Source: Utricularia gibba (Eukaryota > Streptophyta > Magnoliopsida > Lamiales > Lentibulariaceae). Taken from it: a stretch of 64,000 bases of DNA. The notes beneath the pieces are model-generated. The model was not told where the DNA came from. It saw only the letters and a program-made list of their open reading frames with translations, and did not search any database. Numbering within the stretch: the first letter of the stretch is position 1; the number at the start of each line of letters is the position of its first letter. Positions 5,225 to 44,047 of this stretch are shown piece by piece. The DNA is taken from contig NEEC01000016.1 in NCBI GenBank assembly GCA_002189035.1, positions 1,566,001 to 1,630,000 of the forward strand, given 5' to 3'. The position numbers were made by a program, and so were the translations under genes.

Positions 5225-6053
5225 ATGGCGGCGCCTAATGACGACGGCGGTAGCGGCGGCGGCGGATCAGTAGCCGGCCGTCAGACGAGCACAAGGTGGA
5301 CGCCAACGGCGGAGCAGATTCGGATTCTCAAGGATCTTTATTACAACAATGGCGTACGGTCCCCGACGGCAGAGCAGATTCAGAGGATCTCCGCGAAGCT
5401 GCGGCACTACGGTAAGATCGAAGGCAAAAACGTCTTCTACTGGTTTCAGAACCATAAGGCTCGTGAGCGCCAGAAGAAGCGCTTCACTTCCGTCCCCCCT
5501 CCGCCTCTCCCTCCCCCGCCGCACTCTTTCTCCGATCATCTCGCCACCGCCGCCAAGCTCAACGCACCCTTTTCGTCTTCAGGTTTACACACATTTCTTT
5601 TTTTTTTTCACCTCCTCCGTGTTCTTACGTTTTCTCCCTGTAGGTGGATTCGGAGGTCCCTTAGCCATGGAGATGAAGTTCAAAGTAAGCTGAAGAACAA
5701 CGCATTATCAAAATAACAAATCTTCATCTTTTTCTTCTCATAGTGCATGCTTCTCTCGACAGGAGTTCTGCGTCACTCCGGGAGGCGTTTGTACTCCCCA
5801 GAGCTTGGCATGGAACCCCTTCTCCTCCTCCTCCGCGTGCTTCCCTCCGCCGGCAAGGGAGATCGAAACACTGCCGCTGTTCCCGATCCAGGATGAAATG
5901 GCGTGGAAGTTGGTCCCTGAGGGCGGCGCGTCGAGTGTCCCCGGCGAGGGCGCGTCACTGGAGCTCAGCCTGAGCTCCTCCTCCGCCTCCTGGTACCATG
6001 ATGAAGCATGTCGTCTTCCAAATCCGGCCTTGAAACCCCATGCCCACAGTTGA
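5225..6053 (+). CDS. WUS: WUSCHEL homeodomain transcription factor
   Basis: Three exons (5225-5582, 5644-5684, 5763-6053) splice in phase with GT-AG introns to 229 residues. The homeodomain (about residues 22-87) reads [20 protein letters not shown] and [20 protein letters not shown]. The YYNN insertion and the final KKRF are the form seen in WUS rather than other WOX proteins. Exon 3 has the WUS box TLPLFPI (169-175) and an EAR-like repression motif LELSL (199-203), which recruits TOPLESS in the family. WUS keeps shoot stem cells undifferentiated. The protein is short for WUS (usually near 290): the linker between homeodomain and WUS box is reduced, and exon 2 is only 41 bases. A proline run follows the homeodomain. 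Neighbouring genes support orthology. Confidence 0.93.
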
Positions 6054-8940
6054 TGCGAAGCTAACGTTACTTGTATGTTTTGGTCATGAGTATTATGAAT
6101 ATAAGATATGATACTAAGGGTTGTGGGTTGGCGAGGGGAGGAAATGATTGGAATGTTGAAAAATAGAGTGAAGTGGTGATGGGAGGCCCAAAAAGCTGAA
6201 TGATTGATTCATCAACACACTTGTTGCATGTCACTTCCCTTCACCTTTTCCAATACCCCTAAAATCCTCATTTCAACCCCAAAATATTTTCCAAATTTCT
6301 ACTATTTAACAAAATTCTACATTTAATTATTATTATTTAATTAACATTAGAAGTTTAATATAAGTAATGGGTCCTCATTGTTTGACGTACTACTAATATT
6401 TAGTTTCTAAAATTTAATGTATCAAATAAATTTAGTTATTGATTGATTTAAAATATTTAAAAAATAAGTATATATAGTTTTTATTATTCTGGGAAATCGG
6501 CGATGATGGTTGATTTTGATAATGAGGATCAATTTTGTCATAATAAAAAAAATAATTGTACATAATTTTTTAAATAATGAAGATGAATATTAATTTTTTA
6601 TGAACTAATCATCAACCATGCCATTTGAGAAGACACCCAAATTTGCAATTTTCAAACTTTAATAAAGTGAAGTAAACCAAATATTGAATACCCAAACAAA
6701 AATGCAAGCATGGGAACCCCTCAATAATTGAGGATTTTTATATAGTTTTAAAACTAAAAATAAAAGTGAGTTTCGAAATACACCATCATTAATTATTTTA
6801 TTGTGTTATCCTCTGCCGTAAGGTTTGGGGATGATGCAGTTGAGGAACTGAATTGTCTCCTCTGGCGAAAGTTGAGGAAAGCGTTGCAGTTACAGAAGTC
6901 ATGTGGCGTATTCCGATGGGACTGAGACAGACAAATTCATTTTCCCATTCACATTCCTGTCTCCGCTTCCGCACAAAAAGCAGGGAGATGGAGAGAAGAC
7001 AATCGAATGCAACACGGTGGAGAGATGGGCGGTTGTTTGTTTGTGTGTGGGGGGGTTCCAGGACCAGGAAATGGTGTGGGGATTCAATCGGACTGTAAAG
7101 CATGTCGACTTTACATCCTGTTCTGGGCAGCAGGGGGGATTCCGAATTCAAAACGCACACCAAAACGTCAAGATCGCAGAGATTCTGTGTACCTTTTGCG
7201 GTTCATATCTTTGAAACTTTAGCAATCTTGAGGTACACGCACGCCCCATCTTGAGTTTTTGGAACCAGAGCACGATGATGATGATGATGATGAGTGAGTG
7301 AGTCGCAGCAAAGGAAATGATGTCATGGGGTGACAACAAACAGACATGTAACAGCTACTCTTCACCTGCACCCAATCGCAATCTTGTCATCAACCAGCTT
7401 CTGTAAGTGCAGATGGGCTGCGCAGACAGCAAATGCGAGGGTATATAGAGAATGCTCAGCTTCAGTTGCAGTATCTCCAGTATACGAATACCGAAGCCTT
7501 CGACTGTACGCATCATCTACAGGAGATGCCGGTTTCATTCTGCTGCTTCAAGGCAATCATCCCTTTTCATGGGAATGCCAGCAACTCTGACCGCCCGCCA
7601 TTGCAGCACTGAAAGACGATTCACTGAGCCTTTTCCACATGGAAGCTCCAACGACAGCAAGTAACGGGAGGACATCCTGCATAATATATCAACGGACCAG
7701 TCAGTATCTTTATTGAGCATTGGCAATTGAATCATTTTATTATTTCCATATAATTGTAGGTAAAATAGGTATAACTGTTATTTTACCATCAAGTAGATCA
7801 AAATTAATGAACGTATTAAACTTAGATAGTAATTCTATTTAATCGAATAAATAATTAGTGATATAAACTATACGATGCATCCGACCATTCTCGCTCAACG
7901 CGCAGTACGCCACCATGGTGTCACTCGACATCCCAACATATATGAAGCTTTTGATAAAAAATTGTTTAATAATAAGTTGTTTATAAGTTATTTTTATTGA
8001 TTATAAATTGTTTATAATTTATATAATTATTTTATTTAATTCTATAATTGATTTTAAAATAATAAATTTAAGTTAATTTTATAAATATGAAAAAACGTAC
8101 ATATTTGTTTTTTTCAAATTAATTGAATTATCGTAATTATCAAAATATTCATATTTATTATACCAATTTAAAATCAAAAAATTACTTACCTTTATGTTTT
8201 TACTTAGTTTTCAACATTCTCTCCTCATCCTATTATCACCTTTTATTCAAAAGCTATTTTTGTGTAATTTCATTCACTTGTGTTATTTAGACATTGAAAT
8301 TCAGTATTTAACTTGTAAATCTTATGATTTTATAGTTCTTATGATTTTAGTGATTATTTTGATAGTGATTTAAAAAAACTTTGTTTTTTAATATTATTTA
8401 ATAATAAGAGGTAAAATAGTATTTAACAGAAAAATAAATTAATATATTTAAATTCTAATAACTTAATTTTTAAATTTTTAATAAATATATCAGATCAAAC
8501 ACTATGTACTCATAATTGATTTATGAATTTATTAACTTAAAAAAATCAATAATAGTAAAAATCATACAAAACACCCAAAATGAAAACTGCCAATAGCTAT
8601 TATTACCTAATGCTGAGATGTTTGTAAGAGGAAAAAAAATTAAGCGTGCGTCCTCTCCCAGCGTAAGCTTCAAGTTTGGAGACACCTGGAATCCAGAAGG
8701 AAATCTGAGAAGCAGGCAGGAGGCTCAAACTTTTCAACTTGAAACCTGCATTCCAGAAGAAAAGAAACAGAACCACCATCTCATTATATGTGCTGAGTTT
8801 AGTGCGAAAAATGGTCTGTTTCAAGATTGACTGCTGCGGATGTATGCTCCAAAATGAACCTCATGGACACTCATTTAACAGAATTCACCCGGGTATAAGT
8901 ATGTCGTTTCGATGGTGATAAAGCATGCAGAGAAGCTAAG
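6054..8940. other. Spacer downstream of WUS
   Basis: The first 200 bases are probably the WUS 3' untranslated region. The rest is AT-rich, with a less AT-rich island at 6800-7700 holding overlapping short frames on both strands (for example 6798-7163 on minus). None of these matches a family I know. A (GAT)6 microsatellite lies at 7274-7291. A second small island at 8600-8830 has a 70-codon plus frame and an opposing minus frame, also unrecognised. Confidence 0.45.
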
Positions 8941-10130
8941 GTAACGAACATGGAATGGCTACGAGGAACCCCTCTACTTGGCAGTCCACACGCAAGGAGT
9001 CGGTCGGCTTCGAACACGGCGTGCAACTCTTGTCAAAGGATTACCGGACTCTTGGGCGAACCCCGAGAGTGCTCGTGGGAGAGACCCACTCGAGCTACGG
9101 GACTCTGTGCGATCGAACAAGCATGCGTACCCAAGGGATGGTGAGTGACGTGCTGAATCCTGGGAGGAGAGTGGTCACGAGCCCAAGTGCCCAAGTGTTA
9201 GGTGAGATATGGCTGGTATGCATTGGCCCAATAGAATGTTGGAGAAGGGCCCAAAGGTACAAGAAGGGTAAGAGGATTGACCTTTCATATACTAGGTCCA
9301 TAAGATGAAGGGTTGGAAGTGGAAAGGGTTCAGAACCTCAACGGTTGGGAGGTAGTATACAAGGGCTTGGCATGGTGGTGGGTTGGACATTGGAAATCAG
9401 AGAAGGAGCGCCACCATGCCGAGATACGGAAGGAGAAGGTCACGGTTTGGCAGAAGGGGAAGGAGCCACATGAAGGTAAGAGGAAGCATGAGCCGGAACG
9501 TACGAATAAGGGCTGAAGGGCCATAAGATGATGAGCTCGAAAGGGCGGGGTCGGACCCTTCGCTGAGGTATCTCCGACGTCAACCCAACGTGAGTTTGGA
9601 GGTAGATATCATCATGAGCTCCAAAGGGAGCGGGGTTGGGACGAATCACCGTGGCTTGTATCCCTCCCGACGGTAACGTGATGTGCCATCATGGGATACA
9701 CACCCGTTGTGACCAATGAGTTTTTACGATATATGTGTTTATGCTATTACGATGATATGTACCATGCTTATGGTAAGCCTTGGAATTCAGGAGTTCCCTG
9801 ATCTGATATGAAAAACATTCCCTCAGGGCTGAAGAAGATTCCGAAGTGGAATCACTGGTGAATGGCTTGACGTTAAATGGAATCACCCGAGGCTTTTTCT
9901 ACCTTCTCCGGTGAACCTCATGCGTAGCTCAAGCAGGAAAGTAGCACCCGCCACATGGGTTTAACCCCGCAAATCGTTCAAAACAAGCGCGAGTTGTGGA
10001 AACAGCAGTTCTTCGTCTTACCAAACATCGATCCCCGTCTTTTAGGTTACCGATTGGGGGAGGCCTCTCGGGGTTGAAAAATTAGCCATTTTGTGGCGTT
10101 TGGGGGTACGAACAAAAACACGCCCCCTGA
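8941..10130. repeat. LTR-like repeat, family not assigned
   Basis: This stretch is markedly richer in G+C than the DNA on either side and lacks long reading frames. It has two imperfect copies of a segment beginning ATGAGCTC-AAAGG-GCGGGGT (near 9530 and 9613). The texture resembles the long LTRs of plant Gypsy elements. I found no primer-binding site or TG...CA ends that would fix the borders, so both the coordinates and the class are tentative. Confidence 0.35.
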
Positions 10131-10585
10131 GACAAGATTCGATCATCCCAATGGAACTGCAGATAGTAGCGATTTGCGAAGAAGCCCAGTTCCAAGGTGC
10201 AGATAGATCGATTTCTAAGAGGCAACACTCTGCTAGCCGCAGATCGCCGGAATTTCTTCAATTCACCACCTCAATCTAATATAGCCCCTGGCGGATCTCC
10301 GCCAGAGAGGATGGGCGACTGCTGATTCCAAACTTCCGAGGGAGGAATGCGAGGCAAGAAGTAAAGAACCAGACTGCGGTTTATATGATTTTGTAGGGGG
10401 AGAGACTTGAGGCAGACACAAAGGAGGCAGATTTGAAACTGATCGTAAATGACAGTTTTTGGGTGTCAATTTCCAAAAAGTTTAGGGTTTGAACAAAGGC
10501 ACAAAAACTTCCTATCCTTCAAAGTAGAGGTGTCAACAGGAAGACACCATGAACAAGGAACTTCAACCACATCAAGCCAAAGTAA

Positions 10586-11746
10586 TCAAATCAACGCAGA
10601 ACTGATTTTTCCCATTAAACTGGGTGGAGAAGCGGCTGCTGGGGTTTCAATCTCATTCTTCGCTTCTTCCTCTCCTTCAATCTCATCATCACTATTGTAG
10701 ACGAACCGGATGTGCTTGCCCGTGAACTTAGGCCAATCACGGACACTCATTTTAGTCATTCCTTTGCAGAGTTCATTCATCAGTTCTTCATCTCCCTCCT
10801 CTTCTTCTTCATCTTCATGTTCAAGGTAATCGTCACTCTCTAGCCACTCGTCTCCTTGGTCTTCCTCATCTTCATCCATCATGCTACTGGCATTTGCCTG
10901 TATAGACCAAATGGATGAGCTATCATCTTCAATGGATAGGTTTTCTCCACTGCTCATTTTGCCTCCTTGGTATGAAGAGCCTCCTGAAGAATTTGATTTC
11001 TCTGAGAAATCCAACAGCAAAGACCTTGTGATCACATTATCACCCTCCAACCCTTCCTTGTTATCCTTAGTCATCATCTTTATCACAAAAAAAATGAGTA
11101 TCAAAATCACAAACTGTTAATCAAAAAATGACAAAAAACTAGAGCTGATTTAGAACCAACCTGGGGTATCAGAATCCTTTCTGTTACAGGTGTAATGGAA
11201 GGTAAATGGTCACCCTCACCAGAGAAGTCCGCTACTTGGGGCGTGTTAGCCGGAGTCGGAGCCACCAATGTAATAGGTACTGGAGAATCGATGCTGAGTC
11301 CATAAACCTTGAAGAGTGGCCTATTTTCAATCGCAATCTTAGAAGGCTCTCCCTCTTCCTCAACCTTCTGCAGAAGACTCTTCACTTGACCACGCAACAG
11401 GGCTTCACCAGATCCAGGCGCCGATTGAATGGTTGCCTTCTTCTTGTAAGCAAACGACGATGGAGTCGCCTGATTTCCCATCGCCAATCCAATAATCGGC
11501 GAATCGTTCGTTATATCAATCAGCGCAGATCGATCTTGCCGCTGCACCGACTTCGCTTTCTCCTTTCCATATTCATCAAGTTTTCCTACAAGAATAATCA
11601 GAAACAGAAAAAAAAAAAGAGTGATCGTAACCGGAACAGAGGAAACGACCCATACCCGTCGCCGGGAAAGGCAAACTACCGTTGTTGGCGGCAGAAGAAA
11701 GGGCATGCGATCTTGTTACTCTTCTAATGGACGACGGAGTTTCCAT
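10586..11746 (-). CDS. Conserved plant protein of unknown function (METPSS/VTRS family)
   Basis: Three exons on the minus strand (11746-11656, 11585-11161, 11077-10586) join in phase to 335 residues. The start METPSSIRRVTRS is followed by RSALIDITNDSPIIGLAMGN (about 53-72), GSGEALLRGQVKSLLQKVEE and APTPANTPQ. The last exon has a long Asp/Glu run and a conserved-looking tail WPKFTGKHIRFVYNSDDE. I recall proteins of this shape annotated in plants as 'chalcone-flavanone isomerase family' (such as AT5G66230), but no isomerase fold is visible and that label is doubtful. The acidic, low-complexity make-up suggests a nuclear regulator. MSA elements upstream suggest G2/M expression. Confidence 0.8.
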
Positions 11747-12149: not shown

Positions 12150-13000
12150 ATCTTCTACCAGGGCGTTAGGGTAAAATTTTGCGACGATGAAGTTGCACTC
12201 ATTAACGATTTCGAGGTGAAGGTTACTGGGTATGGAATTCAACTGCTTTATGGGTTTGGAGGACTCCGTGTGTTTTGTGGGTGAATTTTTTTACCATTGA
12301 GAATGATTGTTTTTGTAGAGATATCGAAGATTGGATGCGGAAGTAGGTTTATTGAGGCACTAGCTGCATCTGATTCAACAGGGGAATGAAGATAGCATGG
12401 CCCAGGGGAAGAAGTTTCAGGTGTCTGTGGATCAGGAACCAACTAGATTAGTGGTAAGATTGATGTTTGGATGATTAGGACTTGTGAGAGGAAGAATTGA
12501 ATCCTGGACCTTCTCCAGGGGCATTTGGCATCGGCGAGCCCTTTTGAAGGCGCCTGATAACAACAAGATGAAAATGGCAGGAGAGGTTGGCAGAGGCGAA
12601 TGAGGCTTTGCCTCGGGTTAAGCCGGCCATGGCTGACGGTCCAAGAGTCAGCGATTCCCGTCTTGAAGCCAACGAAAGAGCCCAGCAAATGCTTCATGAT
12701 CTTCAATCTGAGAAGATGAATTGCGGCGGCGATCATGCGGAGCAGAGACGGGTTCTCGGGTCATCTGCTCTCTGGAAATTTCAAAGCCATTAGAGGAAGA
12801 GGCCATTGGAGGTGAGAACGCAAATGCAACTCGCAAATGGACACCCTGAAAATGCTAAGAATGCAGCAGCAAACTTGTAACTCAATCATCAACTCACTCA
12901 GCGTCGATGCACCTTCGTTTTACGTCTCAAAAAGCTTCTCCTTTGCAGAGAGTCTCAAGAGAACAAGGTCAGGCAATGAAAAACGCGCAACATAATCTAT
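12150..13000 (+). pseudogene. Possible degraded protein-coding gene, unidentified
   Basis: Several plus-strand patches translate to protein-like sequence without joining into one gene. Near 12160 a frame reads VKFCDDEVALINDFEVKVTG. From about 12560 to 12793 a frame contains RLEANERAQQMLHDLQSEKM. Near 12900 another reads SVDAPSFYVSKSFSFAESLK. Stops and frame changes separate them, and no complete splice chain was found. This could be an eroded gene or one with introns I failed to place. I do not recognise the family. Confidence 0.3.
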
Positions 13001-13516: not shown

Positions 13517-14747
<1,231 letters not shown>

Positions 14748-15909: not shown

Positions 15910-17132
15910 ATGGGGAAGGTATCGCCAAATGAGATGCAATTAAAAGGTGGGAGACAGAAGCCATGGTCGAAAAATCGCAAGAGTAGTAAGTACTTGAAGC
16001 CCGGTGCTCTTGCCCAGATTCGAAATAGCAAGGCTGCTAGTAAAGCTTGCACGGATCTTGGGAAGAAACGAGTTGCTATTGCAAACGCCAAAAGGATCTT
16101 AGCAAGTGATGCTGATGATGCGGCTCATCGCAATATAAGCCCTGGATATTTATCGCCTGTGAGGTCCCAGTTGGATACCTTGTATGGGGCTTTAGGTAGT
16201 ATTAGTCAGAACCAGTTACCAAGTACACCATCGACACCCTGTGACAAAGTTTGTGATTCCGAATCACGCCTTGAATCTCTTCCGGATGACTTGCTGGTAC
16301 ATTGTTCTCACCCTTTTCTATCTGATCATTCAGTTTGAATTTTCCAATTTAAGCACTTGAGATTTGCATGTTCGCGTATATTTGATGACCCTCTTTGAGT
16401 CCAATTGAGAATGTAGCACTTCCACCAGTGTGTCGTTTCACAGTTCATACAGCACTTCACAATGATAACTGGGAATTTCCACCACCAATCATGGGTCTGT
16501 TTTCTGATGTAAAGGTGAAAATACTTTGCCATCTCCACCACGATCAGCTCAAAGCAGTGTTTCATGTCTCACGGAAGATTAGAAACGCAGTGAGTTGTTC
16601 CAGTACCATTTTGTTCCTGATTACTTGTCTTTCTGCCCGTAGAAGAAACTGATTGCACACCTTTTTATCCATCTGCTTTAGGTGATTATTGCAAGACAGT
16701 TCTACTTCAATTATACCACTCCAGACAGAACAAGGCAGGAGATGCTGAACACAAGAACTCCACTTCCAACTGATCATTGGCCTTTCATGAGGTTAGCCTT
16801 GACATTTTGAATTCTACGTGACATCCAGTGAAGACCCTTTTGTTTTACAAACTGAACGTATGCATTGCAGCATGCGAAGTGGTAAAGGGATTTGGATTCG
16901 AAGCCCCCACACACCTAAGGCACCCAAGCACGGACAACGCCCCCCATCTCGTTTGAAAATCACAGAGATGAGGCAAATCGCAGCCGTTCTTTTCCAAGAT
17001 TCCTCTTTCTCATCCAAGTGCTTGGTGCCATCAGTACTTGGAAAACCCATGTGTAAGTCGTTGGCTTCCCACAGAGTGTTGCTCTACGAAGATGAACTGT
17101 GCCAAGCAGTCGCTCAGAACAAACTCCGTTGA
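15910..17132 (+). CDS. F-box protein, At4g35930-like
   Basis: Four coding exons (15910-16296, 16515-16589, 16682-16791, 16871-17132) join in phase to 277 residues. A leader intron probably ends at the CAG before 15861. The F-box starts at about residue 121 with LESLPDDLL, crosses the first intron, and continues VKILCHLHHDQLKAVFHVSR and RQFYFNYTTPDR. F-box proteins bind SKP1 and choose substrates for SCF ubiquitin ligases; the substrate here is unknown. The N-terminal third is basic (KPWSKNRKSSKYLKPG), and the C-terminal part has no repeat domain such as Kelch or LRR. It closely recalls the Arabidopsis family including At4g35930, which fits the gene order. Intact. Confidence 0.88.
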
Positions 17133-17626: not shown

Positions 17627-18532
17627 TCAAAACGGTGCCGTTAGCGTTCTCTGGAGACGCCTCTCCTTGGTGCTTTGGTGGTGGTGGTAGTCGTGGTCGT
17701 GGCCGTTCTGGGCAGCTGCCGCTCTCAATAGCTGCGTGTCACGTTCAGAGAGTGAAAAAAGACGGGAGGGAAAAAAGGCGACATTGTAATGGACTTTTAG
17801 ATTTCCAGATTCAGCATACAAGTTGTATGCATTCTATTCATTGGACTACCCTTTTAGTTCTTTCCCCACTCGAATCCTAGGCCCTGTTATGGAATAGCAG
17901 GCACAAACAAAGACACCCGGTTTCCTTGTATTAACAGTGGTAGATCCAAACCTGTTGCTGCTGTTCCTTGAGGCGGGCGTTCTCCGCAACAAGTTGTGCG
18001 ACCTCCATTTCCAGCTCGTTGGTGTAGGCCTGAACAAAACAGAGAGAAAGAAAACAAAAAAAAAAAAGACAGGGGATTGTGTTCAATATTTTACGGAGTA
18101 AAGTTTGGTGTTGAGTAAGAAGGAATGGGGGTGTTTTTGTTTCGGTGCCTGTTTTCTAGCTCTGGATCGGGCGGCGGACTCGCGGTTCTTGATCATGCGT
18201 TTTTGCCTCCGGTCACCGGGGCCGGGCTCGAGATCCACGAACCTCTTCCTGCCGGCAGCGTTGGCGTGCTCGAGTGCTTCGAGAGCGATGTTGAGTGATA
18301 TGGACTGGGGGCGAAGGGAGTTGAGTGCGAGGGCGGTTGGAGTTGGGGGAGGAAGCGCTGCAGAGACGGGAGCCGCGTCGTTGGAGAAGAAGTCCTGCAG
18401 GATGACACCTCCGACGGCGTGCCGCTGGAGATCGGGCTGCAGAGTGAGGTCCCTCCAAAGATCCTCCATTGCCGGAGATGATGAAGACTGGGTGGAGTTA
18501 GATTTGAAGACAGAGGAGGAAGATGGCCACAT
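17627..18532 (-). CDS. FD: FD-type bZIP transcription factor
   Basis: Three minus-strand exons (18532-18149, 18029-17952, 17731-17627) give 188 residues. The start MWPSSSS was chosen because FD proteins often begin MWSS and the frame then runs to MEDLWRDLTL, the conserved A motif. The basic region RRQKRMIKNRESAARSRARK (109-127) leads into the leucine zipper AYTNELEMEVAQLVAENARL. The last residues LQRTLTAPF form the SAP motif, whose Thr is phosphorylated so that 14-3-3 proteins can bridge FD to florigen (FT). FD activates floral meristem genes at the shoot apex. Intron 1 has an unusual GC donor (CAG|GCACCG) between the basic region and the zipper. Group A bZIPs are the alternative, but the SAP tail and gene order favour FD. 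Confidence 0.9.
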
Positions 18533-25345: not shown

Positions 25346-25399
25346 GAGGAGGAGTTGAGTTTCAAATAAGGATCTTAAGAGGGGAAATCCTTTGTAGTC

Positions 25400-26170: not shown

Positions 26171-26173
26171 TAT

Positions 26174-27465: not shown

Positions 27466-27469
27466 ATTT

Positions 27470-27486
27470 TGGCGCTGTTGCCGGGA
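27470..27486 (+). promoter_or_regulatory. Primer-binding site (tRNA-Asp type)
   Basis: TGGCGCTGTTGCCGGGA closely follows the TGGCGCCGTTGCCGGGGA primer site typical of Athila/Tat Gypsy elements. It sits five bases after the probable LTR end. Confidence 0.8.
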
Positions 27487-27879
27487 GTTGTGTATTTTTG
27501 TATTTAGTGTTGTATATAGTTTTTCTTTTTCTTTTCTTTTTCTTTCTTTCCTCTTGCTTTTCTTTTGTTTCCATTTTGCTATTGTTTTTCTTTGTTTTTA
27601 TGCATTCAGCTCCACCCAAGGGTCACTGAAGCTTGAGATCGTATCGAGAAATCTTGTGCCCCTTAGATTCGGAGATTGAGTGCACATTTCTAGCGAAAAA
27701 GCGAGAATTAATTTCTATTTCATCTACTGACAAAGAAATGACTGCTTAACCACTACTAGAGTCCCCACAATGCACGAAGAACAGGAGCAACAGCATTTGC
27801 AATTTTTTCCAGTTCTGCCGATCACTAATCATGGCCTAACACTAAGGACCATCAAAGAAGAAATCACCACCAACCATGC

Positions 27880-29600: not shown

Positions 29601-29759
29601 TTGAGGTTTGCTTTGGGGCTAATGGACAACAAGCATCTCATGATGCTCAGATTTCGATAGGTGTTCCTATCTCAACTGAGGGAGTGGCTCATCTTTGTGG
29701 CTGTGGAAACCACTGAGGAGCTACTTCAGGTAGCTTGCTACTCAAGACTGAACTAGGGG

Positions 29760-30420
29760 TGATCGATGAAGAGAAAGGCAAGAAGTTTGATTTTGGAGAG
29801 CAAAAACCTGAGAGAAGTGCCATGGGTTCGATGGCAGGTCTCCGGACACCCTATGGAGAGTGTCGTTATGCCGGAACCCATTTTAGCTACAGTTAGATGG
29901 GACATATCACTTAGAATTGTTTGGGGAAGGAGACGAAGGCTATGTAGAACACGATAGAGTGAGTCATGGCAACCATTCAGATCACACAGAGGCAAAGAAG
30001 AATGAGAATGATATATAATAGGTATGCTCCTACTCTTAAAAACAAATATTGCAGTTTTTTTCGATTGCGGAGCCATGCATTCCTTCATCACGAGGGAATG
30101 CACATGACAAGCAAGACTTTAGGGTCATGAATTGGTTGAGTGTTTGAAGCTAAGACATCAAGAGGAAGAGTACTGTGTGGAAGGCATAAACACACTAAAG
30201 TGGTGATATGCCTAAGGGCTATGGGAGCCAAGGTGGATTGATAGAATTAGATATTTTTGGGATTGATGTTATCTTAAGATTGAATTGGCTATGATGGTAC
30301 CAAGCAGGGATTGGTTGTGCCGGATGGGTCATTGAGCTTGAGGATGCACAAAGAAGGAAATAGGAGTAAAACCATGAAAAGAGAGCCAATGGATGAAATA
30401 GTGGAATTTATACAAAAATT
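29760..30420 (+). pseudogene. Gypsy protease remnant, second family
   Basis: Broken frames read FFDCGAMHSFITREC (around 30060-30105), a retropepsin active site, then IDVILRLNWL and WYQAGIGCAGWVIEL (around 30255-30340), the block that leads into Gypsy reverse transcriptase. The DCGA form differs from Athila protease and resembles chromovirus-type Gypsy. A second, unrelated insertion abutting the Athila-like remnant is the simplest reading. Confidence 0.65.
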
Positions 30421-31560
30421 TCGAGATGTGTTTTTGATAACACTGTTTTTATGGTATTTTTATATGTGTTTTTAGTTGTAGGTTTAAATGTTATTTAGTG
30501 TGTTAAATTGTCTACTTTTGTCTATTTAGATTGTTAAAATGTATTTATTAGGAAAACATGCTCAATTGGCAACAATTGAGCTGAAAACTCTAACATTTTC
30601 CTCTAGTCCGTGTTTAAGTCTTAACAAGGTAAGAACTAGTACTGTAGCAGTGCATCTTCCACATTGACAAGTCAAAATGGACACAAAAGTTGTGCAAAAG
30701 TCACTTTTCTCTGAAAGCAGCCACTCTTCTGAAAAGATAAGATTTGGAACAGATATCTCTCTTCTAAAAGCTTGAGGAAAAGACGAAACTACCCTTACTT
30801 TTGAGCTGAAAAAGGAAAAAGTAAGAGAGAGATAGAGCGAACAGTGAGGGGGGAGAAGCGGAGCGAGAGCGAGGAGAATTGTGTTTCTCCGGCGACCTTC
30901 AGATCTACATTCTACACCAGCATTCCACTCAAGATTTTGATTTTCAGTAGATCTACATCTCACAGAAGTATCTTGATACTTTTATTTGCATTTTTCTGCA
31001 CTTTCGTTGTTGTTTAACTTACGCTATTACTTCCTTCATTTTCATGCTTTCTGTTACATTTCGATGCCTTGTTGTGAACGAGAAATCCCTTGTACACCTT
31101 ATTTCAGCTTATGAACATGATCCTGTTTAAGCCTTTCGTGTTTGACTTTGGATTTCCATGCAGTGCAATGGCATGTTTGTAGTGTCTAGAGAACATTGAA
31201 ACCTCTTGATGTTGGAACACATTAATGACATCTTTGCGGTACCTTGAGGACATTGAAGCTTTGTGATGGCTAGGCACTACAATTGCAAGTTTGTGCATTG
31301 CCAAAAGAATTTCACATGAAATTATAAGTTTCCCCTTCTCCTTATTTCAAGCTTGGGTCTGATTGTGTCCAAACATGGACACATGTGGAGTTAAAAACTT
31401 GTACTTCAGTCAGTATATGAAAAAAATGATAAATGAATAAATAATATGGTAAAGTCACTCATTCTCATATATGGAACTCCCTTCACCACCGTCATCATCT
31501 TTACCATTTTGTATAAATGATATCAAGCTTGACCGTCTCAGAGTGAGAATCTTAACACTC
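30421..31560. other. Unassigned DNA between Gypsy remnants and hAT
   Basis: AT-rich at 30430-30600, then more mixed. The minus frame 30562-30963 and similar short frames have no family match. The segment may be an LTR of the preceding element. Confidence 0.3.
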
Positions 31561-31700
31561 AAGCTGAAGGCACTTTGTGATGCCACGGTAGAAGCTAGGG
31601 GTGCCAGCACATGTCTAGCCACCTATGCCAATATATGATACATTGCAACTTACAATTTCCACCAATTTAAGACGTCAAAGTTATCACTCTTAGCTTAAAA

Positions 31701-33299
31701 CTAGTGGGTTGTATTGGACAATACCACCTCGTTAGCCTTGATGGTCATGCTAGGAGATGTTGAAATCATGGAATAATAATCATATGCAAAAGAGAAGATC
31801 CATCTATGCAACTTCTCACTTCCAACCCGCATATTGGACGCTTCGCACTCATACAAGTCATACAAATATGTTAAAGCATCTAAAGAAGAGGTATACATTT
31901 TTTTTGCATCAAGTCGGATATTAGGAAGTTCAAGGGATGTGAAATAATCACAAATCAAATTTAAACCGGCGTGCAAACTGGTTGCTTTTACCCTAGGATC
32001 AAGCATGTTTGCTACAAGAAACAACATAGGTATAGTCTCAAAATATTTCATAAATGTAGTGGCTATGACAATCAAGGTAGACAACACAGCATGTATGGTA
32101 AGATAGTAAACACCACTAAATAACCTAGTGTATTTATGAAAAATAGAAAGCAAGTCAACCAATATGTCAAACTTAGCATGCACATCATCATCATCCACAA
32201 TATTAAGGTCTGTATACGTAGTTAAAAACAATGATACAACTTCTCTATAAGGAATAAAAAATTGAAGCATAAAAAACGTAGAACTCCATCGTGTTGGCAA
32301 ATCTATTCTTAAAGTTTGGAAAGGCGGACACTTTAACCACATAAACGCTTAAAAGACACCATTTTGTGCTAAACATCTTCACATGATAAACTATCCTATG
32401 CACACTAGACAAAGCAGCCTCAATATCATTTTCATTTAGTGCATCTTGTACATATAAATTCAAAATATGACATGACAAATGCATCTTGATCTAAAGAAAC
32501 ACCCACTTAAAACAGGATTTATAGATGATTTCAACATGGACATCGCACCAACATTATTGGAAACATTATTAAGATTTATATTAAAGACACGATGAATAAT
32601 TGAATACTCAATATATAAGTAACAAATTTAGCAATTTGTGACTCCATGTGTGGAGTCACTTTTGTATAAACCATTTGCAATCAATCTAATGAGCAATTAC
32701 AACTAAATAATTTTCATCATTAATATCATGCCAACCATCACAAGTTAAACCAAATTTGCATTTCATAGATTGAAAATCATAGATCAAATGTGATTTTTTT
32801 CTTCGAATTGTTTTGACGCAATTCCACCCGCTTTTCTCTTAGACATGGGAGCAAGTCTAGGTTGCAATCTAGATTAATAAAAATGTCGAAAAAACAGATT
32901 CTCTACTTCTAAAAAAGATTTTTCACTAGCAATCAATGCAATTACATAATCAACTTAGGTATCATCAAGATCAAATGAAAAGTTTGAAACATAGCCACGC
33001 AAAAAATTCAAAGTAGATTGTCCTAATGAAGTATATGTCTTGTCTATATGCTTACTTCTAATATTACGAATGAAATTAGAAGTTGAACCACTCTTACCAT
33101 AATCATACATGATGACATAGTACTTACAACATACTTTTTTAGCCTCTTTATCGTGGTTGAAATATTCATACCAATTGATGCATGAAGCATCTCGTTTTTT
33201 TGAGGTGAAAGAGATATCTTCCCTATCGCCCAAAACCTCAATATTACACTCAGGATGTTGCTCGTGTGAAGGTGTCACACTTTGATGTGATTCTTCCAT
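31701..33299 (-). pseudogene. hAT transposase remnant
   Basis: The N-terminal frame (33299-32955) carries a BED zinc finger: INWYEYFN, VCCKYY and a distal FIRNIRSKH supply the Cys-Cys-His-His ligands. After a gap with stops, frames at 32484-31701 read the hAT core, including LPTRWSSTFFMLQ, the middle helical domain and ANMLDPRVKA. The C-terminal hAT dimerisation block is not visible. A functional copy would move DNA by cut and paste; this one is inactive. Confidence 0.85.
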
Positions 33300-33699
33300 A
33301 TTAGGTTACCTGAAACACAATTGGGAGAAACAAATCATTCCCAAACCTTACATAAATTACTATTAACCGCACATACGCATGCTTGTGTTTCTCTTTGGAT
33401 AGTCGCACACATACATTTTGGAAGGTCTCCAAACACCACAAAGCATGTGAGTTCTAGGGATTTAGCTTCAATTTTGGTCCAAAAGTCTTTGATAATGCAG
33501 AATTAATCTCCTAAATGCGCAATGAACAGCACACAAAAGTCACAAGAGGGAGGGGCACAAGCATTTGAAAAACATGTTATTAGCCCATGTATTTATATGA
33601 TGGTGAATTGGGACTTTATAACATTCATATACATTAAAGAGATTGAAACCCAACGGTTGAACATCCTAGCTCTTTTTGATAGACTACATTACAAGCCCA

Positions 33700-33824
33700 T
33701 ATTGGTTGACCTGCAGGGTCAACCCGTACTCGTGCACCTCCGACCCGTCCCGTACCCGTTTTGGATGGTTACAGGTAATGGGTTGGACCCATCACAGGTA
33801 AACCCATATCCGTGCCCAGCTCTA
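33700..33824 (-). repeat. Terminal region of the hAT element
   Basis: Read on minus, the sequence begins TAGAGCTGGGCACGG and continues with short GGGT/ACCC-rich repeats, typical of plant hAT ends. It lies 5' of the transposase remnant on the same strand. The opposite terminus was not found with confidence. Confidence 0.6.
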
Positions 33825-33839
33825 GCGGGGCATTGAACC

Positions 33840-36148
33840 AAAATCTCAATCGCCCTTTGTGAATCGAGTAACTCCCCCATCACCTGCATGGTCTTTTGCT
33901 TTCATGTGATAACATATGTTTTTCAATGTATTAGGACTACAAAATGAATAATATTATGTTATTAAACTAGTAGTTTATTAGATATTTCTTTATTTTCATG
34001 ATTAAGAACATTATTTAGATTTTTTAGTCCCAACGTTCATCCTAATTATTTTCTTTGAGCAATGCACCACATTTTGGGCAATGCAAATTCCAATGAGTTG
34101 AAAGTGTACAATGGAAGTAGACCAAATTCCAAGGAGACCAAAAAGTAGATTTTGGAAATAATGAAGAAATAAAAAGTGGATCTCCCCGTTGAAAAATACA
34201 CAACACAATTCTAAGGAGGGGGATTTAGTAGAAAATCATAGAAAAACCATGAAAAAGAAGAAGAAGATGAAGAACTCAGCTACATTTGAAGATATATTAC
34301 TTCTAGTCAGGGGTAATTTTAACTTTTTGCACGGAAGAACCAGGAAAATTGTTTATTTTCTATTGTTCAACTTTAAAACGTGGATGATGTTTATGTTATG
34401 ACATCCACAGAAAACAATAATCCAACATAAAAGTAATTCATTATTTATGTAAAATAGAAAAGAAAATAAAAACTTTCATTTTTTAAGTAACTTGAAAATA
34501 TAAAGAATAATGAATGTAATTCATTATATTTGGAGTGTGACATAAAAAGACCAAAAGGGATAAATTCAATCAATGAACATCTTCAAACAACCTTTAAAAA
34601 TTAAAGAAATGATTTGTGAATTGTTGAAACTATGACTATTCACTCAAAGCATTAGTGACGTTACAAAATAAGAAATGTTGTAGCATCGATCACATCTTCA
34701 CCTTCTTGAATGTTGATATTGTTGAAAATTGGACATTAAGAATGAGAAAACAATAAAAAACTCAAGCACGTAACATGCTATGCTAGTATTTCTCGATCTT
34801 CAAGGATTCAAGAGTCTTTTCAGGAACACTATTCAACTTAGAAATTAGTTATATATATATATGTCTAACTCTAATGAACTCAAAAAAAAAAAAAAAAAAT
34901 GTGGGCTTAGCCCGTATGCACATGTAAGAGGCTTTTGGGGTCGGTTAGTTTTGCACCCCTCCTCCTTCACATGTAACCTTTTGAGTTTTAGGGCCCTTCG
35001 AAAATCCAATTCGATTTAATAAATTAGAACCATGCGAGATTAACTCATTTTCAAGTTCATCAAAATTAATGTGTTAATATTTCATATAAATTAGTTGAAG
35101 AGAACTTCAACTAATAATGCGGGATACTCATCTATTCTCCAATATCCAATATTTTCAATAGATACTCCCTATAAAGATGACGTTGAGTATGTTCATGCCC
35201 AATAGGTTGCATAAACAACAACACTTAATTCAGTCATAGAGATGCTTCTAACAAGCTCAAGTCCATAACTTGTTTTCAACAAATCACAAAGTTGGAAAAA
35301 AAAATGTATCCATCATCAACTCATCATAACATCTTGCTGGAGTTCCTTCAAGCATCTCTTTCAATTTTCACTGCCCCCATAAGTCTTCTAGTTGGACATG
35401 GCATTTTTGAGATTTCAATGAGTAATTACCAATGGAGGAGACAATTTTTCCTCGTATGTTGTAGTCTTTGTACGGTAGACTTGAAAGAATATCCATCATT
35501 TTCAGATGACATTTTAAGAGGCTATGAATAAAATATAAAACAATTTATCATTAAGTACCCCATAAGAAAAATTCTAGTTTATGATATTACAAAAAGAAAA
35601 ACTCTAATTTTGTTATGGCTATAGAAACAATTTAATAGCTATAAAAACTCTAGTTTGTTTATTTCACTATTTGCTTAAAAAAAAATCATGTAAAAATTAA
35701 TTCACTCAATATCCACAATTCTACTATCATTTATTGATACCTTAAAATTTTACAATCAACCATAATCAACAATTCACAAGAAGTGCAGTATCCCAAGCGA
35801 TAAAAAACATTCGAGAAAATTGTATATAATGCTTTTTGCATATAATGCATAGGAAGAACAATTTCGTGTTGAGCTTGGCATCAAGTTGATACAGTCACAA
35901 TAGTAGAGATTACAAAGTATATTGAATTTCAAAGAGAATCCAAAGGGATCGAATTAGTCATCTTAATTTTTGACAAAGAGAACAAAATATTACTTATGAA
36001 AATAAATCTATTTGACTCTTGATTAAAAAGAAATAAATTGTCAACACCAGAGAAGCTTATGGATAGAAGAACTTTTTTGTCTTTTTACGATTGCAGTATT
36101 TGTATGGAATCTATCTTAGAAACATTAGAACAATCTCTTTTTAGATAA
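33840..36148. other. AT-rich spacer with poly-A tract
   Basis: No gene is supported. An A18 tract at 34884 abuts the short sequence TGTGGGCTTAGCCCG, which looks like the end of a small retroposon or other repeat. Frames such as 35292-35531 have no family match. Confidence 0.45.
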
Positions 36149-36373
36149 CAGTGGTGTTATGAAAAATTTTTAGAAGCTATTTTTATTTTTCAAAAAATAA
36201 AAATAATTTTATTCTAGAACACTATCAATTGTAAATGTAATTATATCACAAGTAATTTTGAAATTATACTACAAAAATTATTTTTAGAGAAGTAAAGAAT
36301 TACCTACTTTTCCATCTTTAAAAAGTAATTTTGAAAAAATAGAAATACATTCTAAAAATTTTTCACAACGCTG
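36149..36373. mobile_element. MITE with about 30-bp terminal inverted repeats
   Basis: A 225-base AT-rich unit begins CAGTGGTGTTATGAAAAATT and ends with the inverse of CAGCGTTGTGAAAAATTTTT. The two arms match over about 30 bases with few differences. It has no coding capacity. The flanks (TTAGATAA and CTTAAGAA) could be a decayed 8-bp target duplication, which would suggest a hAT-type element. The class is uncertain; the inverted repeat is clear. Confidence 0.7.
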
Positions 36374-36449
36374 CTTAAGAATATACTACAAGGCAATGTG
36401 CAAAATATTACTTTTTTGTGTGTAAGTGCCCCAAGTCTGCCAATGGAAT

Positions 36450-36740
36450 TAGAGTTGTGTTAATGACAAATCCTGTATAAAATAGAACATGTTGCTAATG
36501 AAACAAATCTGAAGGTTTTGATGTTATTATCGTATTAGTATATTTGGAATATTAGGCGGAAAAAGTTTTTTGTGAATGAATATTCCCATAAAGATTCTAT
36601 TGAATACAAAATATATGAATAAAAAATGCACATACATTTAAATAAATAGTTGCTCAAATCATCCTTGACAATTCGACGAGCCTCAACCACCTAAACAATC
36701 TTTATTTTTCGTAATATTTAAGCATATTAATTTTATTTGT
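36450..36740 (+). repeat. Dispersed repeat, copy A
   Basis: About 290 bases resemble the segment at 46230-46560 in the same orientation. Shared blocks are TTAATGACAAAT, ATGAAACAAAT, TATATTTGGAAT, GATGAATATTC-like sequence and AAATAGTT. The copies are diverged with small indels. No coding frame; the family is unknown, possibly an old LTR. Confidence 0.6.
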
Positions 36741-37393
36741 ACATTTAATTTAAAAACCATCATCTAAATATTACCATTAGAAAAAGTTTGAAAAAAAATA
36801 TCCCTTGATTTTGAATTCTTGTTTTATAAAAAGACAGCTATTAAGCAGAAGGTGTTCCAAACCTATGGAAATTGTTGTTGTTAAACCGGGTACGGAGCAG
36901 GAGTTGGAAACCTTGCTCTCAAATTACGACACATACTTCCAAATTTCTTTTAACCAAAAGCGAGAGCATCCCGTATTATAGTTTTGGACGAGCATTGATT
37001 ACACAGAGAGAGACTTCATTTGAAACATGAAACCACTACTGCGTTTTGGTATATTATATTAATGGGGCTGGCGGGAGATTCTCTCTTCAAATTTAATTTT
37101 TTTTCTATAACAAAAAACCATAAATATAACAAAAAAATTATAAAAAAACCGTCTCAAACTGATTGGGTTGGGTAGTACCCAGCCAATGCCTGACTGATAT
37201 CATGCTGAAGTTTAGTGGGCTATCTATGGTGTACATTTCACACCAACACTTTGGAGGTTTTTAATTTCATGTACAAAGTGTGTAGTTACTGCTAGTAACT
37301 TGCCCAACTCAAAGTTTGATTAAACTGGGGTTTGTTTGAAAATTTGCGGTTGGATTGATGCTCAGCTAGGACAACTCCTACCCGCACTCTCAG

Positions 37394-37400
37394 TATATAA
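37394..37400 (+). promoter_or_regulatory. TATA box of the C2H2 gene
   Basis: TATATAA within CAGTATATAATACGAGG lies 55-60 bases upstream of the ATG at 37455. That implies a leader of about 25-30 bases and favours this start over 37469. Confidence 0.5.
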
Positions 37401-37454
37401 TACGAGGTTCCTACACCCAGGTTTGTGCGTGTTGCCTCTGCTGTCGGGAGAGCA

Positions 37455-38083
37455 ATGGACTCCCCCAATTGGGAATCGGACGAGGGCTCCTCAGCGGCTC
37501 ATCCGAACCCCAGGCGCAAACCAGAACAAGAACAAGGAGAAAAGAAAGATTCTCCTCCCAGGGTTTCCCGTGGTCCGCCAGTTCCACACTCAGAACCCCA
37601 CGGGGTAGGCCTTCCGATGAATCTGCTTTCCAGTGGTTTAGGAGGCTTGAACCACCGCCGAATCCGATTACTGGTGAGTTGGATTTTTTAGGTACGCAGG
37701 GTTTGGTTGTGACTGTGCAGGGGGGAGTACACGCTGTGCCGATGGTAGGATCTCCCGGGGAGATGACCCGAAAGAAGATGCGCCACGGCCAAGGATCCAT
37801 GAAGCAGCCCAGACATGGATCCGGGAAGAAGTGCTATGTTTGTGGTAAAGAGTTCCATTCTGACAAGGCTTTGTTTGGCCACATGCGATCTCATCCCGGA
37901 AGAGGGTGGCGAGGGGTTTACCCTCCGCCGTCTTTTCAAGCTAGCCAAGAATTCGCTGACCTTCGGGATCTTCAACAAGCTGCTATCGCCGCCGTCGCAT
38001 CCCCCATGAGGATACCGCAACATCTTCTGTGCGAGACCGTGGGCAGAATGCGCCGGAGGGGCGCCCTGGCCTGCCGGATCTGA
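37455..38083 (+). CDS. Single C2H2 zinc-finger protein (probable one-base frameshift)
   Basis: The finger CYVCGKEFHSDKALFGHMRSH is followed by PGRGWRGVYPPPSF, a pattern of a plant C2H2 group with one finger and the ALFGHMR variant of the QALGGH helix. It probably binds DNA. Two frames are open at the 5' end: from 37455 (MDSPNWESDEGSSAAHP) and from 37469. Only the second reaches the finger. One extra G in the GGGG at 37602-37605 would join the first frame to RPSDESAFQWFRR and give about 209 residues. The TATA position favours that start. No intron is needed. The position between CYCB2 and WOX13 matches Arabidopsis At4g35610, also a C2H2 gene, from memory. Confidence 0.75.
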
Positions 38084-40485: not shown

Positions 40486-41503
40486 ATGGAGTGGCAAAAG
40501 CAACCGCCGCCGCCGCCGCAGCAGCCGGAGGATCCGGGTGGCGGTGTGTTTGTGAAGGTCATGACCGACGAGCAGATGGAAGTTCTGCGCAAGCAGATTG
40601 CAGTTTACGCCGCCATTTGCGAGCAGCTCGTGGAGTTGCATAAATCCCTTACTTCTCACAACGATCTTGCAGGTACGGAATCCAGGATGTAAATTGAATT
40701 AGCTCCATTTTTTTTTTTTTTGTCGCTGAAGCGCAATCCCTGTCTGTGTTTCAATTGAAAACGCTGCTTATTTTTTGGATTAGGAATGAGGTTGGGAAAT
40801 ATGTATTGTGATACGTTGATTGCATCGGGGACGCACAAAATTACTGGTAGACAGCGGTGGACTCCCACAGCGATGCAACTTCAGATTCTGGAGCGCATGT
40901 TTGATCAGGGAATTGGAACCCCAAGCAAGCAGAAGATCAAGGAAATAACTGGTGAATTGTCACAGCATGGCCAGATTTCTGAAACCAATGTCTATAACTG
41001 GTTCCAGAATCGGCGAGCTCGGTCGAAAAGGAAGCAGCAGTCTACTCCTTCAAACAAGGAAGAATCAGAGGTGGATACTGAAGTTGAATCTCCCACTGAG
41101 AAGAAAGCTAAGCCTCCAGAGTTTCAAGCTCACCACGCGCTAACGTCATCTGCAGGCGATCTCTGCTTTCAGGATCATTCATTTCATTCCGTGGATACTC
41201 TCAATGGGAAGATAGACTCTATTATGTCTCCAGAAGGCAGCTCAAAGTTCGGTGACATTCTTGGGCAAATGCCCTTCTATGGGAGCACGCTGTCCGGTTC
41301 AAGTAACTGTTTCATCTTGACAAGTTGCTTTCTTTTCCTAAAACATAGCTTTATCTGCTTCAATTTTCATCTTTGTTCTCTTTTCTTCGTGTTCAACTCA
41401 CACTTTCTGTTTTAAAGGCGCAGGGATAGATCAGATAATGGGGAAGATGGAAGTTCAAGGAAATTATAATTATTTGCTACAAGATGGCTATAGCATGGAC
41501 TGA
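40486..41503 (+). CDS. WOX13: WOX13 homeodomain protein
   Basis: Three exons (40486-40672, 40784-41302, 41418-41503) join in phase to 263 residues. The ancient-clade signature [13 protein letters not shown] precedes the homeodomain (about 84-148): [32 protein letters not shown], then [17 protein letters not shown]. The [16 protein letters not shown] helix is diagnostic of the WOX13 clade. There is no WUS box, as expected. The N-terminus carries the family block [23 protein letters not shown]13 proteins act in fruit and root development and in cell fusion during regeneration. The start at 40486 was chosen over 40384, which would add an atypical extension. Intact. Confidence 0.95.
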
Positions 41504-42341
41504 TAGCTTGCAGAATATATACATATCATATACAGACTGAAATGCTCCAAGTTGACCTTTGGACAAATGATATTGCTTTGATGCTTTTGGTTTCCTGTTT
41601 TCCTTGCTGTGTGGAGTAAAATCTATTGCAGGATAAAGAATGAACTTCGTGTATGTTAAAAGTTACTGCATTCACTGCGCGATGTATTGTTTTTCTGTAA
41701 TGGAAGCCATGGTGGGAGGTAAAAATGCAGAATATTTGTCTCTCCACTTTTGTGGCTTCCCATGATGACTAGAACTGCCTGATTGTCACGTGTGTAGTGC
41801 TTGAGCTCCTAAGACATCTGCGAGTTCTCTTGAGCATGTCTCTGTGTTATTTTCCTCTGTAATGTAACAGTAAAATAACAGACGTAAAAAACAAAAGACC
41901 TCCAGCACTTGATGGGCAAATTTGTAGGGGGCATTCCACGTGAATGCGGGGACACGGATACGGGGACACATCCGGATCCTTAGATTTTGAGTTAAAAGTG
42001 CCACTTAGTTGAACCATGGTTGCCAATGGTCGGTTTATGTTCAATTATTCATCTATTTCCCAGCATGTGGTGACGCGCACTTGCCGTGTCCTTGTTCTTA
42101 ATCATTTGAAAGAAGCTATCTTGAATTCAGTTTCTATTACAGGAGAAGAAGCACCTCAAAGTCACCAACTACAGTGCTACACCGCAAAGAGGAAAGAAAC
42201 CATACTGTGTTTCCCACTCTATGGCAAGAAAACAAAACAAAAAAAACTTCTTCATGTGATCTCTATATCCCTTTAGATCCATATCATCATCCAAAATAGA
42301 AAGAAACGAAAAATCAGATCCAATAGTATGCTAAAAACCAG
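41504..42341. other. Convergent gap between WOX13 and SRPK
   Basis: The two genes converge here, so the interval holds both 3' untranslated regions. The plus frame 42016-42276 has no family match. Confidence 0.5.
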
Positions 42342-44047
42342 CTATTGCTTGTGCATCTTGAGCTGAAGGCCGGCCACTCCAGCATTGAGCTTCTCAATCT
42401 TAGGCTCATGACTCACCCCATCCTCATGCTTCTGATCATCCACGTTAAGCCAAGGATGCTGAAGACACTGCCGGACGGAGGGCCGTTTCTCGGGTCGAAA
42501 TCGAGTATCGGTTGAAGGAACTCTGTGAACTCACGAGCATCGCTTTCAGAGAACTTGTACTTGTCAATGAGGAGCCGGCTCAGTGATCCATACTTGAGTC
42601 TTCTGATCCTCTTCAGGTCCCCATATCTGTCGAAGTAATCTTTGGCTCGAGCCCCAGATGTGGCTACCTTTAGATAACAAGTGATGGAACATCATTCACA
42701 ATATTGAAACTCAGTGATATTCAAAAATGATGCATACCTTGCGAGGAATCTTCCCAAGGAGCTCCATCATCAATGCAAGGTGATCCTGCAATTTTCGTTG
42801 GAGAATAAATGATATTGATCCATGTGATGTTTTGGGGACTGATGCAGTTTGTGAAACAGTCAAGAACCATGCAAAGTGAGTAAAAATTGAGGCTTGAAGT
42901 TGTGCATAGAGCAGAGGGATAAATGATCAGAAATGTACCTCATCCTCACTGAAACCTTGACCATTCTTGGGAACAAACATCATCTCACCGGTGGCAAGTT
43001 CGAATGCAGTACAAGCAAATGACCACATATCAGCAGGAAACGAATAGCCAGACTGAAGTATGACTTCTGGAGCTCGATACTGCCTTGTCTGAATCTCTTC
43101 AGCAATTGGCTTATCAGCCCAACACGCATTTCCAAAATCTACAACCTTACATCTCAAATCAATCCCATCCAAGGATCTAGCAGGCTTGGGAACAATGGTG
43201 GGAACTCCCATTGAAGCTCGTCTTTCTGATATCCGAGCAACCGCACTTCTTGCCTTCTGCTTCAGTTTTTTCTCAATGCTGTTCATGGTAGCCCCAACAT
43301 TGGGGTTCCCTTCAGGCCTCTCAAGGATAGGAGTCATTCCTGACCTAACTGGATCTTTCGAAGGGTTAATAGTAGAAAACAGCAGAATGTTCTCCGGCTT
43401 AAGGTCAGTGTGTAAGATTCCCAACTGACAATGCAAGTAATCCAGTGCAGTCAAAATGCATTTGCAGATCTCCCTTACTCTGTTCAGCTCAAGACCCTTG
43501 TATCTGTTATACTTGATCAGTTGAAGTAAACTATCACCAAGAAACTCAAGAACCATGCAGATGTGCTGCCCATTTGGTCCCGAATGCTTGAAGTGATCCA
43601 CTAAGCAGACAACATATTTGCTGTTGGAGGGATCCCCTTTAGCGATCGATGAAAGGATGTCGATTTCATGTAGTGCAGCTTGAGCAAACTGGGGAGCACT
43701 TTTTTGGATTTTCAAGGCAACATATTTCTGACACCAAAATCAAAAAGCTTCAGTCAACAGAGAGCAACAAAAATCGCAATCCTGAAGCTCCCACAGCACC
43801 CACAAACCAAAATGAACGCAAAACAGACAAAAAGAGACAAAGAATCGATTTTTCTTACAGATGTTCGAGTATCGTAAGCTAGCCAAACCGTGGAAAACTG
43901 TCCCCAGCCCAGTTTCTGCTGCGCGATGTATCTCCCAGAAGCGAATGAATCGCCGAACCTGACGGCATGGTACCCTCCTTTCCTATAGGAATCGATTCCT
44001 TCATCTTCGTCCTCCGATCCCGAAGACGAAGAGGGGCAACCAGACAT
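42342..44047 (-). CDS. SRPK: SR-protein-specific kinase (one-base frameshift)
   Basis: Four minus-strand exons (44047-43859, 43727-42939, 42785-42738, 42667-42342) encode about 450 residues. Kinase motifs are GWGQFSTVW (47-55), the VALK lysine (69), HTDLKPEN (169-176), DFGNACW (260-266) and YRAPEVIL. HTDLKPEN and the roughly 80-residue insert between the catalytic loop and DFG are SRPK marks. SRPKs phosphorylate Arg/Ser domains of splicing factors. The acidic N-terminus SGSEDEDEGIDSYRKGGYHA is typical. In exon 4 the reading DFDP-EKRPSVRQCL requires GACCCCGAG but the sequence has three Cs (plus strand 42492-42494), so the frame breaks near the C-terminus. The exon is 326 bases, one short of 327. 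The rest of the gene is sound. Confidence 0.92.

Follow-up and report, generated by a model that had tools for sequence, protein, structure and literature searches.

A Utricularia gibba gene block with WUS and WOX13 and its collinear, complementarily reduced duplicate

The analysis of a 64,000-nucleotide stretch of Utricularia gibba DNA (the window; C402:1566001-1630000 in an assembly of 100,091,633 bases and 516 contigs, to which all genome-wide counts refer) reveals a block of eight genes in which the stem-cell regulators WUS and WOX13 lie 34.4 kb apart, measured from the end of the former to the start of the latter. This block is very probably a whole-genome duplication (WGD) copy of an old linked segment, thinned by gene loss with the order of the survivors kept, in which compaction drew WUS and WOX13 together. 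Between positions 5225 and 44047, the order is WUS, ROP, F-box, FD, CYCB2, C2H2, WOX13 and SRPK, and since every one of these genes was located there, the inventory and order proposed by a first-pass annotation of the same DNA are upheld. The further proposals of that annotation, concerning the age and completeness of the block, fared differently and are weighed against a second copy in the same genome and against published gene positions in other plants.

The eight genes and their Arabidopsis counterparts

The WUS gene (5225..6053, plus strand; exons 5225-5582, 5644-5684 and 5763-6053; 229 aa) encodes a homeodomain of the WUS type, with LYYNN and longer by one residue, that matches the solved WUSCHEL chain (PDB 6ry3) at E 1.2e-36 and STENOFOLIA at 1.5e-26. 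This assignment is further strengthened by exon 3, which carries the WUS-box TLPLFPIQ and a C-terminal EAR-like motif, ASLELSLSS, and the protein matches place Lamiales on top, with other eudicots and monocots close behind. WOX13 (40486..41503, plus strand; exons 40486-40672, 40784-41302 and 41418-41503; 263 aa) bears the homeodomain signature YNWFQNR, which a published account, available in part like all those cited below, gives as the mark of the ancient WOX clade, T1WOX (PMC7148364).

Between and beyond these two genes, the ROP GTPase (13601..14747, plus strand) has RACB and then Arabidopsis ARAC6 as its best solved matches; RACB is matched by four ROP exon stretches and ARAC6 by three, with a fourth weakly, and ARAC6 is the best of the four Arabidopsis ROPs among the matches listed. 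At a late exon junction (14340-14520), the ROP frame shifts by one, whereas the second copy on C505 is open across it; the shift reflects either a decayed gene or an assembly error. The F-box gene (15910..17132, plus strand), which we take to be FBS4-like, has a sub-threshold F-box domain of 21.1 bits against a Pfam cut-off of 24.3. The FD-type bZIP gene (approximately 17627..18532, minus strand, both ends approximate) combines the basic region RRQKRMIKNRESAARSRARKQ, a leucine-zipper exon and a terminal RTLTAPF directly at the stop, presumably the 14-3-3-binding motif, and thus has the features of the FD type; its basic region scores 26.5 bits for bZIP_1 (cut-off 27.6) and 23.4 bits for bZIP_2 (cut-off 22.3). 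The B2-type cyclin CYCB2 (20245..22192, minus strand) has a Cyclin_N domain at E 3e-40 in Pfam, the C2H2 zinc-finger gene (37370..38083, plus strand) is an open frame, and the SRPK-type kinase (approximately 42291..44047, minus strand, low end approximate) has SRPK1 as its best solved match.

The order agrees, as the first-pass annotation had claimed, with the union of two Arabidopsis segments on chromosomes 2 and 4, for which the loci are partly assumed. By locus numbers, mostly of this assumed kind, it is monotone for seven genes on chromosome 4 and for five on chromosome 2, and the odds of a shuffle yielding such an order, resting on the same partly assumed loci, are 2/7! and 2/5!. The two segments, which presumably arose by duplication, are like the U. 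gibba block in gene set and relative order (most loci assumed), with WUS, CYCB2;1 and CPK16 on the chromosome 2 segment and WOX13, CYCB2;2, CPK18 and FD on that of chromosome 4. The loci of ROP3/ROP5 and of the F-box, C2H2, SRPK, PIRL, ARO and ALKBH9 genes are our assumption, and those of FD/FDP likewise. For the cyclins, the published loci are AT2G17620 (CYCB2;1) and AT4G35620 (CYCB2;2) (PMC11207893), and CPK16 (AT2G17890) and CPK18 (AT4G36070) are reported to be syntenic with a gene on grape chromosome 4 (PMC4485369). A literature search returned no paper naming four of six Arabidopsis block loci together.

A collinear copy and complementary gene loss

Genome searches with SRPK and CYCB2 led to a second cluster on contig C505, at 93% and 85% identity, respectively. 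A blastn comparison of the window with C505:1010001-1060000 placed all 21 of 21 matching pieces on one strand and in collinear order, in a run that comprises a stretch upstream of WUS, WUS, a gene of unknown function, ROP, CYCB2, C2H2, WOX13, SRPK and, last, the trihelix and aspartyl protease genes. Because the C505 block repeats the order in the same orientation, the order of the eight genes is more than chance. Synonymous divergence (substitutions per synonymous site, Ks) is similar in five window/C505 pairs (trihelix gene 0.37, WUS exon 1 0.42, unknown gene 0.52, CYCB2 0.55, SRPK 0.62), which together with the collinearity is the pattern sought in a WGD-derived block, with the aspartyl protease pair outlying. 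That pair had been considered as a clean duplicate and was rejected at its Ks of 2.06.

The two copies differ in what they have lost. In a tblastn comparison at E 0.01, with 16 C505 gene pieces queried in the window, C505 frames between WUS and SRPK that are missing in the window were an FHA gene, a CDPK-type kinase, an armadillo-repeat gene, COX15, a rhodanese-like gene and PP2C, with the C505 kinase pieces, rhodanese and WD40 scoring below or near the Pfam cut-offs; beyond SRPK, C505 has an LRR gene that the window lacks. Also missing in the window is a long frame of the same C505 interval that matches no Pfam family. The interval further holds a TPR gene, which accounts for the single piece of the 16 with a protein match in the window (12529-12992, tblastn E 6.6e-42). 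This gene is open on C505 and survives in the window as a relic, delimited by blastn at 12291..12992 on the plus strand. A second relic, at 9777..10318, consists of three short blastn matches to a WD40-like/FHA gene region on C505, where an FHA domain and weak WD40 matches are found; no protein-level match to it is left in the window by tblastn.

Losses in the opposite direction are also seen. None of the four F-box exons nor FD exon 1 has a match on C505, and F-box exon 1 has one match in the whole genome assembly. The FD basic region has eight genome matches, the window's own at 100% and seven others at 68-91%, mostly over part of the query, and none of them lies on C505 near the block. WOX13 on C505 is itself a relic, in which parts of the N- and C-terminal regions are kept, the homeobox is lost and the frame is broken; WOX13 exon 1, where the N-terminal T1WOX motif that precedes the homeodomain would be expected, is 68% identical to it over 41 aa and was compared with that relic alone. 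The 23 genome matches to WOX13 comprise 20 WOX homeobox pieces and three other WOX13 parts (two window exons and the C505 relic), and, by identity and letters, no intact gene of the WOX13 type other than that of the window was found in the assembly. Both copies have lost genes; the description of the block as unfractionated in the first-pass annotation is therefore contradicted, C505 keeping genes without a protein match in the window and the window TPR gene being a relic.

A third WUS block, an older copy, was found on C255, where the gene carries a homeodomain, a WUS-box and an EAR-like motif. Over 40 kb, WUS follows a 2OG-oxygenase and precedes an EF-hand kinase, a cold-shock/zinc-knuckle protein and ROP, in that order and with other frames interspersed; the 2OG-oxygenase domain scores under its cut-off and is presumably ALKBH9-like. 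The WUS gene of C255 has a Ks of 0.82 to that of the window (80 codons) and of 0.99 to that of C505 (83 codons), and a further ROP gene on C375 is 72.7% identical to that of C255, 66.9% to that of the window and 67.4% to that of C505. As far as such sequence comparison goes, these values point to two duplication rounds. One small genome thus holds three WUS-type genes (C402, C505 and C255).

Elsewhere in the assembly, genes that we take to be WOX4-like lie at C412:2446600 and C1:4113511, each on a contig that also carries an SRPK paralogue, 118 kb and 177 kb away, respectively. This arrangement may be due to chance or may be related to the WUS-SRPK block at an older level, and would count as one case if C412 and C1 are mutual duplicates.

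These copies also bear on whether the eight genes were assembled by chance or by secondary transposition, a reading for which the spacing alone is indecisive, as about 0.14 WOX pairs within 36 kb would be expected if 20 WOX homeobox loci were spread evenly over 100 Mb. Against the collinear C505 duplicate, the third copy on C255 with its matching order and the linkage of WUS and WOX13 in three other eudicots by published positions, we consider such an origin next to negligible.

WUS-WOX13 spacing and the history of the block

In poplar, citrus and tomato, WUS shares a chromosome with a WOX13 gene by published positions, and the two are linked in U. gibba as well. Poplar WUSa (Chr05:8858336-8859980) and WOX13a (Chr05:7788135-7790958) are 1.07 Mb and 129 locus numbers apart (PMC4023605). 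Citrus WUS (Cs1g25270, Chr1 27.43 Mb) lies 1.12 Mb and 128 locus numbers from Cs1g26550 (28.55 Mb), a gene paired with AtWOX13 and also with a rice OsWOX9 gene (PMC8124563), and tomato WUS (Solyc02g083950) and WOX13 (Solyc02g082670) are 128 apart by locus numbers only (PMC9788163), such locus-number distances being inexact gene counts. The linkage is thus found in three of the six species with usable published positions, one asterid and two rosids. The spacing differs sharply: the pair is about 1.1 Mb apart in poplar and citrus, and its locus numbers differ by 128-129 in each of the three species, as against 34.4 kb in the window and approximately 32 kb from WUS to the WOX13 relic on C505. In Arabidopsis, the two genes are on two chromosomes, whereas one U. 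gibba copy has both, and far closer than any of these.

From these positions, a single segment probably carried both WUS and WOX13 before the asterid-rosid split. The first-pass annotation had held that they were together before Arabidopsis gene loss separated them, and this is sustained by poplar, citrus, tomato and U. gibba as far as a common segment is concerned, though not as regards their having been neighbours, given roughly 1.1 Mb and 128-129 loci between them in the available tables. By its own yardstick, another genome with the pair within about 100 kb, its strong form fails on the six species with available published positions, and the one further close pair found is the U. gibba duplicate. 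The accessible parts of WOX papers on grape, Annona, Liriodendron and Phoebe gave no usable gene positions, and those of a phylogenomic WOX study report synteny among WOX10/13/14 and within other clades, with none for WUS with WOX13. Likewise, the published WOX-family and Utricularia accounts, as far as they were covered, contain no remark on WUS-WOX13 linkage or on this block, and with such partial coverage an earlier notice is possible.

Several points weigh against the explanation by duplication and loss. At the far end of the block, the two aspartyl protease genes have a Ks of 2.06, the genes on C505 and C255 are open frames rather than transcripts, and their kinase, rhodanese, WD40 and 2OG assignments fall partly under Pfam cut-offs. 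The comparison reaches over 40 kb of C255 and 8 kb of C375, and it is our assumption that the F-box, C2H2, SRPK and unknown genes are orthologous to named Arabidopsis loci. The published linkage is also uneven: poplar WUSb is on Chr07, with WOX13b distant on Chr05 and WOX13c on Chr02 (PMC4023605); in cucumber, gene numbers put WUS on chromosome 6 and the WOX13 genes on 3 and 4 (PMC7148364); in Nelumbo, WUS is on chromosome 1, with WOX13-like genes on chromosome 5 and, by elimination, on chromosome 6 (PMC10531982); and Arabidopsis has WUS at AT2G17950 and WOX13 at AT4G35550, that is, on chromosomes 2 and 4 (PMC8124563).

Even so, the alternatives are far less probable. The original proposal, that the window is the ancestral, unfractionated block and that WUS and WOX13 were original neighbours parted in Arabidopsis by gene loss, fits the agreement of the order with the two Arabidopsis segments taken together (loci partly assumed) and the 32-34 kb between WUS and WOX13, or its relic, on both copies within the genome. 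It is very improbable in view of the gene content, which the C505 duplicate contradicts by keeping genes missing in the window, of the spacing of about 1.1 Mb in poplar and citrus (published positions), and of the species itself. The source is U. gibba, a repeatedly duplicated and reduced asterid genome and not that of a basal angiosperm, for which the published account, in its available part, gives at least three WGDs, strong fractionation and a size below 10% of the estimated ancestral one (PMC10663240), and the word ancestral does not survive this identification. The plastid contig C516 settles the species: its CcsA protein is 100% identical to that of U. gibba, with the next match at 93%. 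Among the 120 proteins listed for ndhF, U. gibba is missing and the best reach 83-86% identity, an absence that we ascribe to other causes because CcsA of the same contig is unambiguous. A basal-angiosperm origin, considered in view of the ndhF values and of WUS matches spread over many plants, is rejected on the CcsA result.

A more serious competitor, still unlikely, is that a single large deletion or rearrangement, which preceded the C402/C505 duplication in the U. gibba lineage, mainly produced the short spacing, rather than gene-by-gene loss. At about 32 and 34 kb, the two copies are both compact already, so that most of the shrinkage seemingly precedes their split, as this reading would have it; the remaining genes, however, are spread in Arabidopsis order (loci partly assumed) all along the interval and not just at its two ends, and the relics that postdate the split show loss gene by gene. 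Since both copies are compact, most of the shrinkage was probably before the C402/C505 split, and since each copy has its own relics, some of it was probably after. The earlier shrinkage may have been either gradual or partly one large event.

The history that we favour, duplication followed by gene-by-gene loss, would begin with a segment in the asterid-rosid common ancestor on which roughly 1 Mb and about 130 loci separated WUS from WOX13. We infer such a long interval for the ancestor of U. gibba itself, and how many duplications there were, and in what sequence, is estimated in the same spirit: whole-genome duplications would have produced at least three and probably four copies in U. gibba. 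After each duplication, different copies would have lost different genes by deletion and decay, with the order and orientation of the survivors kept, and repeated loss along with genome shrinkage would have brought WUS and WOX13 to their present 34.4 kb. A still deeper origin of the linkage, in which a WOX13-type gene was duplicated locally to give the WUS clade, the pair staying linked since and being redrawn together as the Utricularia genome shrank, is a speculation to which we give little credence.

Further features of the window and significance of the block

The copies also differ in their spacers. The CYCB2-to-C2H2 match gap is 15.2 kb in the window and 1.1 kb on C505, and the window gap (22500..37300) holds transposon pieces, among them a gag-like frame recognized by eye (28300-29282; no NCBIfam match) and hAT-like frames (31701-33305), one of which scores below its Pfam cut-off; no repeats of at least 60 bases were found between 22.5 and 37.3 kb. 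Retrotransposon pieces also lie upstream of WUS (31-2480), with a Pfam integrase core in 280-1161 and, by eye, a Copia type and a gag-like part. Closer to the gene, 1.5-2.2 kb 5' of WUS, a stretch delimited by blastn at 3051..3744 is common to the C505 copy, at 77% identity over 703 columns with 50-column peaks of 90-92%. Its part 3420-3744 has two matches only in the genome assembly (the window and C505), and no blastn match to 3051-3744 occurs near the C255 WUS gene. This stretch is a candidate WUS control element or RNA gene; a search of the window with Rfam at gathering scores gave 0 matches.

Between WUS and ROP, a gene of unknown function containing ITNDSPIIGLA (10586..11715, minus strand) has matches in the assembly on C402 and C505 only; it has no Pfam match, and its 10586-11116 part has no NCBIfam match. 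Downstream of the block, a trihelix (Myb/SANT-like) gene at 51704..53105 on the plus strand has a collinear counterpart on C505. At 59171-61919, the window carries a plastid insertion with ndhF and adjoining DNA. It matches the plastid contig C516 (172,489 bases) at 98.15% identity and is best described as a recent nuclear copy of plastid DNA.

The mechanism documented here is ordinary and the example a good one, a further case of known fractionation in one of the smallest plant genomes. Like the fractionated blocks described across the U. gibba genome in the available part of the published account, this one exists in several copies with complementary loss, short introns and short spacers (PMC10663240); it differs from them as the particular block that carries two stem-cell WOX genes. 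The attractive idea of an ancestral block from an early plant is replaced by documented complementary loss after duplication. As far as the available tables go, the poplar, citrus and tomato data in print already have WUS and WOX13 on a shared chromosome, at a near-equal distance in locus numbers. Such findings allow one to ask about the age of the linkage between the two stem-cell regulators and about selection on it.

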